Origin: an uncultured Porphyromonadaceae bacterium
Lineage (GTDB): Bacteria > Bacteroidota > Bacteroidia > Bacteroidales > Muribaculaceae
Assembly: GCA_947177615.1 (NCBI GenBank)
Contig: CAMWUY010000004.1
Location: forward strand, 1-37,478
Length of the DNA stretch: 37,478 nt
Direction of reading: 5' to 3'
The notes under the pieces are model-generated. The model searched no databases. It was given only the letters and a program-made list of their open reading frames with translations, and was not told where the DNA came from. Shown in pieces: positions 21,948 to 28,641 of this stretch (position 1 is the first letter of the stretch; every line of letters begins with the position of its first letter). Made by a program: the position numbers and the translations under genes.

Positions 21948-22976
21948 CTATCTGACAATCCTGTAATTTCGTCTGACTTTGAAACTCACTAAATATATTA
22001 GTATGGAGGCTGTTCTGAATTGCCGTTTTAACATCAATGACAATATCAGGTCTTTTACTTTAGAATCTGTATGCGCTCCTTGAAGTACATCGCTATACTG
22101 ACCGTACCGATTCGATAATTCTTTAGTGAGCGAACTGTCAAACGGAGTTTTGCTATCATATATCGCGAGGGATGTCGTCCATGTGAAGATATCTCGCGCG
22201 ATATAATTTTTCCAATTCGCAAGAGTAGCTTCCCCTATTGGCTCACGCAAATTCAATCGTTCCAACAGCTGATATTTTGCATACCACGCCCTGAAAAGGG
22301 CCTCGGGTTTATGAAGTTTGAAAGAGGCGGACTGCTGATTTTCTATATAATAATATTCATTTTCAGGAATAAACGTCACGCTATGAGTATAATATATATA
22401 ATCAAGTACAAAACATAAATCCTCAGCGAGTGTCATCTTCTCGTCAAAGCGGATAGAATGTTGCTCTATTAAAGCCCGGTCATACAATTTGCTGCATGCG
22501 AATCCTCTGATATGGTCTAAAATATCAGTCATGGACGAGGTAGTAAGAGCATGTTGCACACATTTTATATCAGTTACGACAGTACCGCTAACTCGCTTAA
22601 GACCACATTGTACAAGAGAGTCCGGATGTATATACTTAACCAATTTAGAAAGATACTCCCGACCGATATAATCGTCAGAGTCAATAAAGGTTATATACCG
22701 ACCCTGAGCATGAGAGAGACCCAGATTTCTGGCTGAACTTACACCACCGTTTTTCTTGGGGAAATATCTGAAACGTTCATCCTTATCGACATATTCCAGA
22801 CATATCTGCTCCGAATCGTCGGTACTGCCGTCATTAATCAGGAGCACTTCAAAGTCCGTATACTTCTGACCGATAATACTATCCAGACATTTTCTCAAGG
22901 AACTGCTGCAATTGTATATCGGAATTATAATACTTACAGATACTCTTTTTTTATCATTCTCCATTTGAGTCCGCAT
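21948..22976 (-). CDS. Glycosyltransferase family 2
   Basis: VSIIIPIYNCSSSLRKCLDSIIGQKYTDFEVLLINDGSTDDS, FIDSDDYIGREYL. Confidence 0.93.
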   Translation of the reverse strand: MRTQMENDKKRVSVSIIIPIYNCSSSLRKCLDSIIGQKYTDFEVLLINDGSTDDSEQICLEYVDKDERFRYFPKKNGGVSSARNLGLSHAQGRYITFIDSDDYIGREYLSKLVKYIHPDSLVQCGLKRVSGTVVTDIKCVQHALTTSSMTDILDHIRGFACSKLYDRALIEQHSIRFDEKMTLAEDLCFVLDYIYYTHSVTFIPENEYYYIENQQSASFKLHKPEALFRAWYAKYQLLERLNLREPIGEATLANWKNYIARDIFTWTTSLAIYDSKTPFDSSLTKELSNRYGQYSDVLQGAHTDSKVKDLILSLMLKRQFRTASILIYLVSFKVRRNYRIVR

Positions 22977-24102: not shown

Positions 24103-24789
24103 TCAGAGACTGTATGTCAGCTCTTTGTCATTCGGGTCGGGTGTGGTCATTATCTTGAATAAGACACTCTTGTCGAGAATCTCATCTTGCATAGCGCCAA
24201 GCAACGGCCTCATGACGGGCAAATCCTTGATGGCACAAGACCAGTCATTCTTACCGTACAACAGACTTTTCAGAATATAATTCTTATAGTCCATGTCGTT
24301 GGCCTCCTCCTGCGCTACAAGGTTGGATTTGATGGATGCAAGTCCGGCCTCATCACATATTCTGCAAGCTATATGAAACTCTATTGAATAGTCGCTCAAC
24401 ACGTAGTCCTTACATAATGACATCATCGTATGCAGTTTAAAAAAGGTAAACAGATGCTGACTTATGGCTTTCTTTATGTTATTGCCACTCAGACTCGTCT
24501 TCAACTCCAAAAAGATAATGCGCTTGTCCGCACCATTATTATAGAAAATAACACCATCGGAGTCACTGTCCCGAAGATGACTGCTACGGTCGGTCGTTAT
24601 ATGTGTCATCCCTTTATAAAAAGGATTTTTCAGAATGCCGACATCTCCGGTCGGTATCGTAATCTGTACCTTCTTCAGATCTGCATTTCTTGAAGTCTCG
24701 ATAACGGGCACCGACCCGCACTTTACATCGCAATGACCGGCGTGCTTGTCGAATATCTGCTGAAGTTGTTCAATCGTCCGCATCCTCAA
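24103..24789 (-). CDS. Putative PD-(D/E)XK nuclease-fold protein, partner of the ATPase
   Basis: DSDGVIFYNNGADKRIIFLELKTSLSGNNIKKAISQHL has a D...ExK arrangement followed by a helix; 20-nt overlap with the ATPase gene. Confidence 0.5.
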   Translation of the reverse strand: MRMRTIEQLQQIFDKHAGHCDVKCGSVPVIETSRNADLKKVQITIPTGDVGILKNPFYKGMTHITTDRSSHLRDSDSDGVIFYNNGADKRIIFLELKTSLSGNNIKKAISQHLFTFFKLHTMMSLCKDYVLSDYSIEFHIACRICDEAGLASIKSNLVAQEEANDMDYKNYILKSLLYGKNDWSCAIKDLPVMRPLLGAMQDEILDKSVLFKIMTTPDPNDKELTYSL

Positions 24790-26062
24790 AAAGCTCCTCT
24801 AATTTTGATTTGATTCGCAGACTGTCGTCCAATGCCTTATGAAATGATGAGAACGGTACCCCCCGGTCTATATTTTGCTTGATAACAACAGAACGGTTAT
24901 CCTCCGTTCTTTTCAACAGATATGCCGATACTTTAGAGGGGTCGAGCACAAGATTGGGATTGTCATGCAAATACTCACACAACGCGACATATTGTGAGTA
25001 ATCGTTCTTCTCTTTCAAATCGTCTCTCAACTCATATTTCAACACCAACTCATTTATACGTCTCAGAAAGTAGTCACTGTGGGTTGTGACCTGCACACAG
25101 CTCCCCGCCTGAATCATGCACGACAATATGTCAGCCATCATCCTTTGCTTCAATGGATGCAGATGAGCCTCCGGCTCATCTATCATCAGCGACATTGTCG
25201 ATATATCGGTATTATTTACCAGAAACTCCAGCGATGCCAGTTCTCTGACGGAGGCAGCCGCCGCACTCAACGGCATTTCCTCTCCATTGGTCGAATATAT
25301 ATACTGACCTTCACGCCTCTCGACATGTCCGTCCAGCACGTCGCGTATCAATGCTGTCAATTCATCAGGCAGTTTCAACTTATTAGGCTTAGCCATCAAC
25401 ATGGTCTGTATCGCTTTCTGAAACTCGGCATACATACCTGTTATCGGAATAACTGACTCCGTAAGCATCATGCCTCGTGACGGAGGTAATACGTATGACT
25501 CCGTCAGATCTGTAAACTTACCGAATATTTCCTGGATTAAATAGAAACGGAACAGGTATGCGAATGGGGATTCTTCAGCCATACCATTGGCATCCTTAAT
25601 CTTATACGACAGACCCGGAACCTGAATATTGATATAGGTCTCCACATTATCACCGATTTCCACTATTTCATCCGCGACCTTGCATATTATCATATCCGGA
25701 ACAGAGGCAGGCAACTTAATCGTCACTTTTCCATTCAGGTTGTTAGCCTTGACCATATAGCTGAGCCATGTGACGGCATCTTCCGACAACCATTTCTCAA
25801 ATTCGGATTTGGATATTCCCAACTCCAAGGGACCATCCTTAAGATCCTTATGAATGCGGTCAATATCAAATTCTTGCGAATTGAAATAACCCGATATTCT
25901 TTTGGTATCGAGCAATACTGAGAATATATAATGACAGATGATGGATATATAACTCTTGCCGAGTCCCGATTCTCCGGAAAAAATCATGAAGTTGTTGAGA
26001 ATAATCTCATCAGATTCGTCTATCATTCCCAACTTGTGGATTTTAATACTGACCGGTTTCAT
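24770..26062 (-). CDS. ABC/SMC-like AAA ATPase (AAA_15/OLD-type)
   Basis: Walker A FSGESGLGKSYIS, signature-like LSAAAASVRELASLEFLV, Walker B MSLMIDEPEAHLHPLKQ, H-loop VTTHSDYFLRRIN; Met13 (26062) is a likely start, track ORF extends to 26098. Confidence 0.88.
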   Translation of the reverse strand: MKPVSIKIHKLGMIDESDEIILNNFMIFSGESGLGKSYISIICHYIFSVLLDTKRISGYFNSQEFDIDRIHKDLKDGPLELGISKSEFEKWLSEDAVTWLSYMVKANNLNGKVTIKLPASVPDMIICKVADEIVEIGDNVETYINIQVPGLSYKIKDANGMAEESPFAYLFRFYLIQEIFGKFTDLTESYVLPPSRGMMLTESVIPITGMYAEFQKAIQTMLMAKPNKLKLPDELTALIRDVLDGHVERREGQYIYSTNGEEMPLSAAAASVRELASLEFLVNNTDISTMSLMIDEPEAHLHPLKQRMMADILSCMIQAGSCVQVTTHSDYFLRRINELVLKYELRDDLKEKNDYSQYVALCEYLHDNPNLVLDPSKVSAYLLKRTEDNRSVVIKQNIDRGVPFSSFHKALDDSLRIKSKLEELFEDADD

Positions 26063-26136
26063 ATTATAACATATATGTGATGTGGATATACATTGCAAAA
26101 ATAATAATTATAATTTATATTAAGAGCGCGTTCAGA

Positions 26137-26165
26137 TTGATTTACATACAATTTTATTATATTTG
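26137..26165 (+). promoter_or_regulatory. Possible Bacteroidetes-type promoter for the 708-aa gene
   Basis: TTG (26137-26139) N18 TATATTTG (26158-26165), just upstream of ATG 26191. Confidence 0.45.
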
Positions 26166-26190
26166 AAATAAACTAAATTATTTGAAGCAG

Positions 26191-28308
26191 ATGATGACTA
26201 CTAACATATATGAGGATAAGATAGCACTATGTTTCCGGGAGATTATACTCTGCCGGAAGGTTCTCAACACAAAGAGGGCGGACGAGGTAAGCGCGCGATT
26301 GGTCGCGATTTACATTCTGCTCAGAACTGATGACATCACCAAGTTATGGTGTCATTCATTTCCCAAAGAGAGCATTGAGCGCGTACTGGCTGACGAAGCC
26401 AAGAATAAATATAATGCCGGGTTCCGACAGGTGCGTGACAAAATCGGTGCTCATTATCAATCGGCGGATGCCACCAAATCCGCCGATATATTAGCAAGTT
26501 CACAATTATTTTACAGCTTCGACCTCACTGACATCGACAACCTTGTCGATGAACTTATGGCAGCGCGTGACCTCCTCGAAAATACAGAACACACCTATGA
26601 GGATGTCGTGTCCATTCAGGATTTTGCCGAAATACTCCGAATTCTGGATGAGATTCATGATGGTGACAAAGCCTGTTTAACCACCTCGTCCATCGAGCTG
26701 TTCGGGATAAACCGCGGCGGACTGATTTCATGTTCCAAAGAGCAGAGAAAGGGACAGTTCCTGCGCAGTATCGAGCTGATGGTCAGCTATGCCAAAGCGC
26801 TTGCTGAAGGGAGTTACCGCCAGCCTGAAGTCAAGCGTATGTTCACACGTCTTTGGGCATCACTCATATACAGTTACCACGACAACCTCTTCACCCGCAC
26901 GGACATCTCACCGAAAGCATCTCAATACGAAGAAGGGTTTGACCGAATGTATATGAAACTTGTATCCTCCCGTGATGACCCATCCAAGCTCGAAAATATA
27001 TTCACGGAGTTTGACAATCTGCACCATACTTCCGAGTTCTTCCGTCGCAACAGAGACGTAAGAGACCACGCATGCGCACACCTCGATGAGAAAAGTAGTG
27101 TCAGCGATATTGACTCTCAGCTCAACGGCCTTCCGATAGATGAGCTGTATCGGCAGTATGACAATATGTTGAACCTGTTCAACTACCTTTGCCGCAACAT
27201 TTTCTGTCTAACATTCCTGAGCATTGAACCGCGCTCTCCTCTCCCCGGCGCAAGATTTGAAACCATTGTCGGCAATCGGGACTTTTATGGCCGTGAACCC
27301 GTTGAATGTGAACAACCGCAAAATATGTCTCCGGATGAAATCTTGCGGTCTCTGCGTAAGAACGACTCCAATCGTGAATTGGCCGAAACTCTGTTGATTG
27401 AAAGATTACGTTCACAAAACGATGAGCTTTTCTACCCTATGATTGAGGCGATAACACACCGTTTTGAGGGGATGAATACGATTGAGTGTGATTTATGCCC
27501 AATCTTTATTGCGCTGCACAATGCAAGGAGATGTTTCCCGGAACGGTTGCAGGACTCCCTGCTCATACTCCTGACCAATAATAACATATCTGATTACCTC
27601 AGACTATATATCCTCCGCGAGATAGCGTCATTGGCCCGAAGAGCCCGGGATTATGATTTATGGTCAGACCTGACACTATGGATGCAAAGCGAATACTATC
27701 CGATACAGGCTTTCGGCTTTCTTGCAGGACTGCACTTTCTGATGTCTGACAGCACGCTGAATCCTACACCCAAGACTAAACCCCTTGCCGTCAATACGGA
27801 TTATGCCAATCTGCTTGATGATGTCACCGATCCTATCAAAAAACTCGGCATCATACTTCTGCTGAATCAGCACTGGCGTTTCGGAGATGAATATCAGCAT
27901 ATAAGAAACAAAGAGACTGATTATGACAGTTGGCTGAAAGATAGCTTAAACAAAGACATCAGCAAGTATGCCGACTATATCCATTTGAACAATCAGGAGA
28001 TACGTGACTTATGGAGTAAGTATGATAAAGGAGGGTTCTATTTATGCCTGCTTCATAACCTTATCATATCTGAAAAGGAGAGGAACGCTGACCCGAACAT
28101 GTTTCTTGAGCTGTGGAGATGGAACGCTTTCATACGCTATCGGCCGGACAAATATGAGGCTCTGAGTGTTGCACTTATGGACGAACTGAACGGAAATATT
28201 GATGTAGCCCGCGACTTGTTCATACAAATTGCAGCCGACAATCCGGCTGATGCCTGCGTTTATCAGATGCTCCGCGACTTCAACCGGAGAAACAAACCGA
28301 ACCGCTGA
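26191..28308 (+). CDS. Large protein with two HEPN-like RDx3AH motifs and a helical C-terminal region; putative defence protein
   Basis: FRQVRDKIGAHYQ (26434-26454) and NRDVRDHACAHLDEK (27061-27081), same Rx5H spacing. Track start 26182 is TTG; first ATG is 26191. Confidence 0.6.
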   Translation: MMTTNIYEDKIALCFREIILCRKVLNTKRADEVSARLVAIYILLRTDDITKLWCHSFPKESIERVLADEAKNKYNAGFRQVRDKIGAHYQSADATKSADILASSQLFYSFDLTDIDNLVDELMAARDLLENTEHTYEDVVSIQDFAEILRILDEIHDGDKACLTTSSIELFGINRGGLISCSKEQRKGQFLRSIELMVSYAKALAEGSYRQPEVKRMFTRLWASLIYSYHDNLFTRTDISPKASQYEEGFDRMYMKLVSSRDDPSKLENIFTEFDNLHHTSEFFRRNRDVRDHACAHLDEKSSVSDIDSQLNGLPIDELYRQYDNMLNLFNYLCRNIFCLTFLSIEPRSPLPGARFETIVGNRDFYGREPVECEQPQNMSPDEILRSLRKNDSNRELAETLLIERLRSQNDELFYPMIEAITHRFEGMNTIECDLCPIFIALHNARRCFPERLQDSLLILLTNNNISDYLRLYILREIASLARRARDYDLWSDLTLWMQSEYYPIQAFGFLAGLHFLMSDSTLNPTPKTKPLAVNTDYANLLDDVTDPIKKLGIILLLNQHWRFGDEYQHIRNKETDYDSWLKDSLNKDISKYADYIHLNNQEIRDLWSKYDKGGFYLCLLHNLIISEKERNADPNMFLELWRWNAFIRYRPDKYEALSVALMDELNGNIDVARDLFIQIAADNPADACVYQMLRDFNRRNKPNR

Positions 28309-28494: not shown

Positions 28495-28641
28495 ATGAAG
28501 TTTACTCTTAAGGCAAAGGTGTGGATGACTGCGGCGTTTGTGGCCGTGGCGATGACTGCATGGGCGATGACCGATGATGAGGTTATATCCGTGCACAGTC
28601 GGCTGCCGGCAAGTCCAATCAGGATATCGGTAAGGAACTGA
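28495..28641 (+). other. 48-codon ORF encoding the signal-peptide region of the SLBB protein, out of frame with the SLBB body
   Basis: MKFTLKAKVWMTAAFVAVAMTAWAMTDDEVISVHSRLPASPIRISVRN*; its TGA (28639-28641) overlaps ATG 28641. Confidence 0.8.

Follow-up and report, generated by a model that had tools for sequence, protein, structure and literature searches.

The question raised by this locus was whether three adjacent genes, coding for an ATPase, a possible nuclease partner and a large HEPN-like protein, make up one new or diverged multi-gene defence system, as the original prediction had it, or a pair of an already described kind with a separate neighbour. The window, i.e., the whole stretch of DNA that was analysed, comprised 37,478 nucleotides. 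We consider it probable that the first two genes, A and B, make up an anti-phage pair of the kind known from PD-T4-4, WonAB and PDC-M47, and that the third, H, is a separate gene in the same cassette. The features discussed are the following:

21948..22976, minus strand: glycosyltransferase, genomic context outside the mechanism, linked to the pair in the sister species G990
24103..24789, minus strand: B, nuclease partner, ORF of 228 aa with a predicted PD-(D/E)XK fold
24770..26062, minus strand: A, OLD-type ABC ATPase, 430 aa from ATG 26062, putative sensor/regulator of the pair
26063..26190, no strand assigned: AT-rich divergent intergenic region between the A and H starts
26182..28308, plus strand: H, 708-aa orphan protein divergent from A, HEPN-like by motif only

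The layout was found as predicted, with three ORFs, an overlap of 20 nt between those of A and B (24770-24789), and H diverging across an AT-rich gap. The listed ORF of A runs from TTG 26098 to 24770 on the minus strand (442 aa), but ATG 26062 is the likelier start, since homologues begin there. H is listed from TTG 26182, and its true start may be ATG 26191 or 26194. The gap accordingly measures 83 nt between the TTG starts and about 120-130 nt between the ATG starts. Promoters of both A-B and H presumably lie in 26063..26190, where the promoter-like sequences are consensus matches only. Genes for a glycosyltransferase and an acyltransferase lie to the left of the block and Wza-like, Wzz-like and M23/LysM-type peptidase genes to the right, which places it inside a polysaccharide locus, again as predicted. 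No long repeats were found flanking the block. In the wza-like gene the signal-peptide start at 28496-28641 (MKFTLKAKVWMTAAFVAVAMTAWAMTDDEVIS...) is out of frame with the main ORF at 28641; the gene is a single uninterrupted frame in G990 and other relatives, so that the window copy has either been frameshifted near 28590 or been misassembled.

The gene for A is adjacent to that for B, and the protein carries the expected Walker A, signature-like, Walker B and H-loop motifs (GESGLGKS, residues 30-37; LSAAAAS, near 265; LMIDEP, 292-297; TTH, 326-328). It matches Pfam AAA_15 (PF13175) above the cut-off. Among the PADLOC models, PD-T4-4_A matched with an E-value of 3e-30 over residues 241-433 only, that is, the C-terminal half, which also held the match to PDC-M47A (9e-22); the N-terminal half had no match to PD-T4-4_A models. 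Weaker matches were obtained with the AriA (4e-13), HEC-02A, PtuA and GajA models.

For B, the predicted motif SDGVIF...FLELKTS, including D78, E95 and K97, was confirmed. In an alignment of ten B proteins from A-B pairs the only invariant positions were D76, D78, G79, E95, K97, A108 and Q111, which are the PD-(D/E)XK residues and their neighbours. The PADLOC model PDC-M47B gave a weak and partial match (2e-4) and the PD-T4-4_B models gave none with the window B, although one was weakly matched by four of ten B homologues. A profile-profile comparison of the window B group with the PD-T4-4 B group was not significant (E 0.018, probability 2.6%). AlphaFold2 modelling from seven sequences, the window B and six relatives, reached a pTM of 0.73 and a mean pLDDT of 66. 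The modelled core consists of strands 79-84 and 89-97, helix 102-123 and strand 135-142, and this strand-strand-helix-strand order around D78/E95/K97 is, in the model, that expected of a PD-(D/E)XK core. The top 50 Foldseek matches of the model in the PDB included the restriction-type nucleases Cap4, PaqCI, N.BspD6I, FokI, BamHI and BsmI, all weaker than E 0.001 and suggestive of a nuclease fold. The predicted combination of an OLD/ABC-type ATPase with a restriction endonuclease-fold partner, very probably serving in defence, was thus supported.

The further claim that such a pair matches no named system turned out to be wrong, as PD-T4-4, PDC-M47 and WonAB are all ATPase and nuclease pairs of like kind. 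PARIS, Gabija and Septu share a related OLD/ABC-type ATPase with A, as in the AriA match, but their partner proteins differ from the nuclease B. These partners are Toprim/DUF4435 proteins in PARIS (AriA/AriB), a helicase in Gabija and an HNH protein in Septu. PD-T4-4, reportedly from the work of Vassallo et al. in 2022, comes closer in being a two-gene operon with a PF13175-type ATPase followed by a PD-(D/E)XK protein of about 210-230 aa. The presence of PF13175 and PD-(D/E)XK domains in that system has been documented (PMC10952713). However, the PD-T4-4_A proteins of plasmids and phages were only ~28-34% identical to A over parts of the C-terminal half. Strict membership in PD-T4-4 lacks support, since A matches in that half only and the window B does not match PD-T4-4_B. 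PDC-M47 is a possible match, with hits on both of its models, that of B being weak; it is itself a computational candidate pair in PADLOC, for which no paper turned up in the literature collection searched. WonAB from Vibrio cholerae WASA-1 is, by description, also alike, with two genes for an OLD-type ABC ATPase sensor and a PD-(D/E)XK nuclease effector, although WonB is smaller (16 kDa) than B. WonAB resembles PD-T4-4 and has been placed in a wider family that pairs ABC-ATPase sensors with nuclease effectors, and operons of an 'OLD-ABC ATPase + novel REase' were described alongside it (PMC12137116). Judged by sequence, A-B is a divergent member of this known kind, with an architecture that has already been described, and it is probably an abortive-infection sensor and nuclease.

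Nine further loci, in Bacteroidota and in a Fibrobacter MAG, have the pair without H beside it:

L003/L113: same family as the window genome
L004/L114: same family as the window genome
L005/L115: same family as the window genome
L033: Salinivirgaceae MAG
L034: Fibrobacter MAG
L035 (=L131): same genus, polysaccharide genes around
L036: Bacteroides caecigallinarum
L037 (=L130): same genus, polysaccharide genes around
L038: Prevotellaceae MAG, almost no left flank

BLAST and phmmer searches of the flanks of these loci gave no H, the left flank of L038 being nearly absent. A-B is thus a self-standing two-gene module. At L113-L115, L033, L034 and L036 the pair lies outside polysaccharide loci. Relatives on plasmids and in a Vibrio phage share this arrangement of two genes, with strong PADLOC matches to both PD-T4-4_A (at full length) and PD-T4-4_B.

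H was a different matter. It contains exactly two RDx3AH motifs, as predicted, RDKIGAH at residues 85-91 and RDHACAH at 294-300, each with a polar residue following the R. The expected number in H is 0.006 and two copies occurred in none of 5000 composition-preserving shuffles, for a pattern that was picked post hoc. The general HEPN motif Rx4-6H stayed at chance level (6 against 3.6 expected, P = 0.14). Searches with Pfam, NCBIfam, PADLOC and PHROGs gave no credible match and no HEPN family profile, and sequence searches of solved structures gave no relevant match. A single-sequence AlphaFold2 model was all-helical, with a pLDDT of 35 that is too low to settle the fold; both RDx3AH motifs lie at the ends of helices predicted in it with low confidence, and a fold search with the model returned no meaningful match. 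No internal duplication between the two halves was detectable (local score P 0.28). H is therefore best described as an orphan with neither a family match nor a confident fold, and HEPN-like on account of its two RDx3AH motifs only. The predicted tandem HEPN protein has the motifs in its favour, but neither a profile nor a confident fold. Of the tools named for checking the prediction, structure prediction gave B the PD-(D/E)XK core order and H no confident fold, and PADLOC recognised A and, weakly, B, but not H.

No homologues of H were found in plasmids, phages or genome contigs, and samples of the family, order, phylum and class yielded chance matches only. Three candidates were rejected as relatives of H: a long protease-like ORF (L009), an unrelated small ORF (L010) and a chance BLAST match in an ORF overlapping the ATPase match (L102). 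The search of the genus gave one real relative, in G990, where H lies directly upstream of wza and is 81% identical over residues 193-707. The second RDx3AH motif is identical there; conservation is 93% around it and lowest at the C-terminus, 47-70% over residues 580-708. The dN/dS of 0.24 against this copy shows that H is a real gene under purifying selection. A and B of G990 are 87% and 90-91% identical to the window copies, respectively, and the glycosyltransferase has 91% nucleotide identity to its counterpart at 21948..22976. One G990 contig, 4 kb long, holds glycosyltransferase-B-A and breaks off immediately upstream of A, and another opens with H and runs on into wza. This is consistent with synteny of the three genes and the glycosyltransferase across a contig break inside H; the acyltransferase, unlike in the window, is absent between glycosyltransferase and B. 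Between window and G990 the dS values were 0.30 for the glycosyltransferase, 0.31 for B, 0.87 for A and 0.48 for H, whereas wza reached 2.8 and wzz was saturated. With values so far below those of wza and wzz, the block was apparently exchanged between lineages as a unit. This comparison of sequences suggests a recent exchange of glycosyltransferase-B-A-H, perhaps with internal mosaicism. The G990 data support physical linkage, but not a shared mechanism.

The distribution bears directly on how the three genes should be read. Co-occurrence of the three genes, proposed as a check on the prediction, was seen in G990 alone, against nine pairs without H, which argues against H as a required third gene. 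The multi-gene claim retains from this the joint presence in one sister species, which leaves room for an optional accessory role of H. A system in which A is the sensor, B one effector and H works with A-B, be it as a further effector (an RNase), as a sensor or as a modulator, is possible, yet we consider it unlikely. The presence of all three genes in G990 in a layout consistent with synteny, their apparent joint movement (dS 0.30-0.87 in the block) and the fast-changing C-terminus of H, as expected of a sensor surface, speak in its favour. On the other hand, H is transcribed divergently, the pairs lacking it include L130 and L131, which belong to the same genus and likewise lie among polysaccharide genes, and linkage in two related genomes can reflect hitch-hiking, the glycosyltransferase being linked too. 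Likelier is a small defence cassette in which H and A-B are neighbours that work independently. In the specific form of a stand-alone defence protein, an HEPN-type RNase beside an independent A-B system, this reading has somewhat less than an even chance. It agrees with the occurrence of A-B elsewhere, with the two motifs at predicted helix ends in an all-helical model of low confidence, and with further candidate defence genes that lie close to wza in the genus (PDC-M29A/B-type and DUF262/HEC-06-like), but not with the missing HEPN profile, the low fold confidence and the restriction of H to two genomes that both have A-B. It is improbable, though worth stating, that the three genes make up one defence system, a PD-T4-4/WonAB-like pair coupled to a new family of large tandem-HEPN RNases or sensors in a cassette mobile within Bacteroidales polysaccharide loci.

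A role of the three genes in regulation or synthesis of the polysaccharide instead of defence appears very unlikely. The position of the block between the glycosyltransferase/acyltransferase genes and wza, as well as the two further pairs of the genus among sugar genes, would fit such a role. Pairs outside polysaccharide loci, relatives on phages and small plasmids, and the matched families, all of them defence families, stand against it.

In the preferred reading, a two-gene module with H as a separate gene, A would dimerise via its ABC-type ATP sites and hold B. By analogy with WonAB, we infer that A may detect infection and permit B to act: some change in A set off by the phage would release B or switch it on, and B would then cut nucleic acid, RNA or DNA, and stop the infection, probably by abortive infection. 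In WonAB, defence is lost in catalytic mutants of either WonA or WonB, and an excess of WonB blocks translation, an effect that depends on WonA (PMC12137116). H, as a constrained separate gene, would likely add a second defence function or an accessory one, of HEPN-like type, and be dispensable for A-B. The cassette lies in a variable polysaccharide locus, immediately upstream of wza, and would move with the neighbouring glycosyltransferase.

With A-B, the ATPase and PD-(D/E)XK nuclease kind represented by PD-T4-4 and WonAB would gain a divergent Bacteroidota branch, and H, orphan and constrained, becomes a candidate for a new defence family. Surface-polysaccharide loci, which often specify phage receptors, are among the sites where pairs of the A-B kind land; no earlier case of defence genes in such loci turned up in the literature collection searched. 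Elsewhere, Klebsiella ColRNAI plasmids of ~4.3 kb (L008) carry a PD-T4-4-type pair as their main cargo, with four annotated genes in total, and in a Vibrio Peduoviridae phage (L007:2167-4198) such a pair is flanked by a CI repressor on one side and an integrase-like gene on the other. Within the genus of the window, G069 has an ATPase and its partner near wza (L029:6993-8872) that match PDC-M29A (3e-22) and PDC-M29B (2e-6). In G978 an HEC-06/Orf5-like ORF of DUF262 type is found at the edge of a contig, upstream of wza (L030:1-503), which together with the other cases suggests that the region around wza serves defence genes as a landing site.
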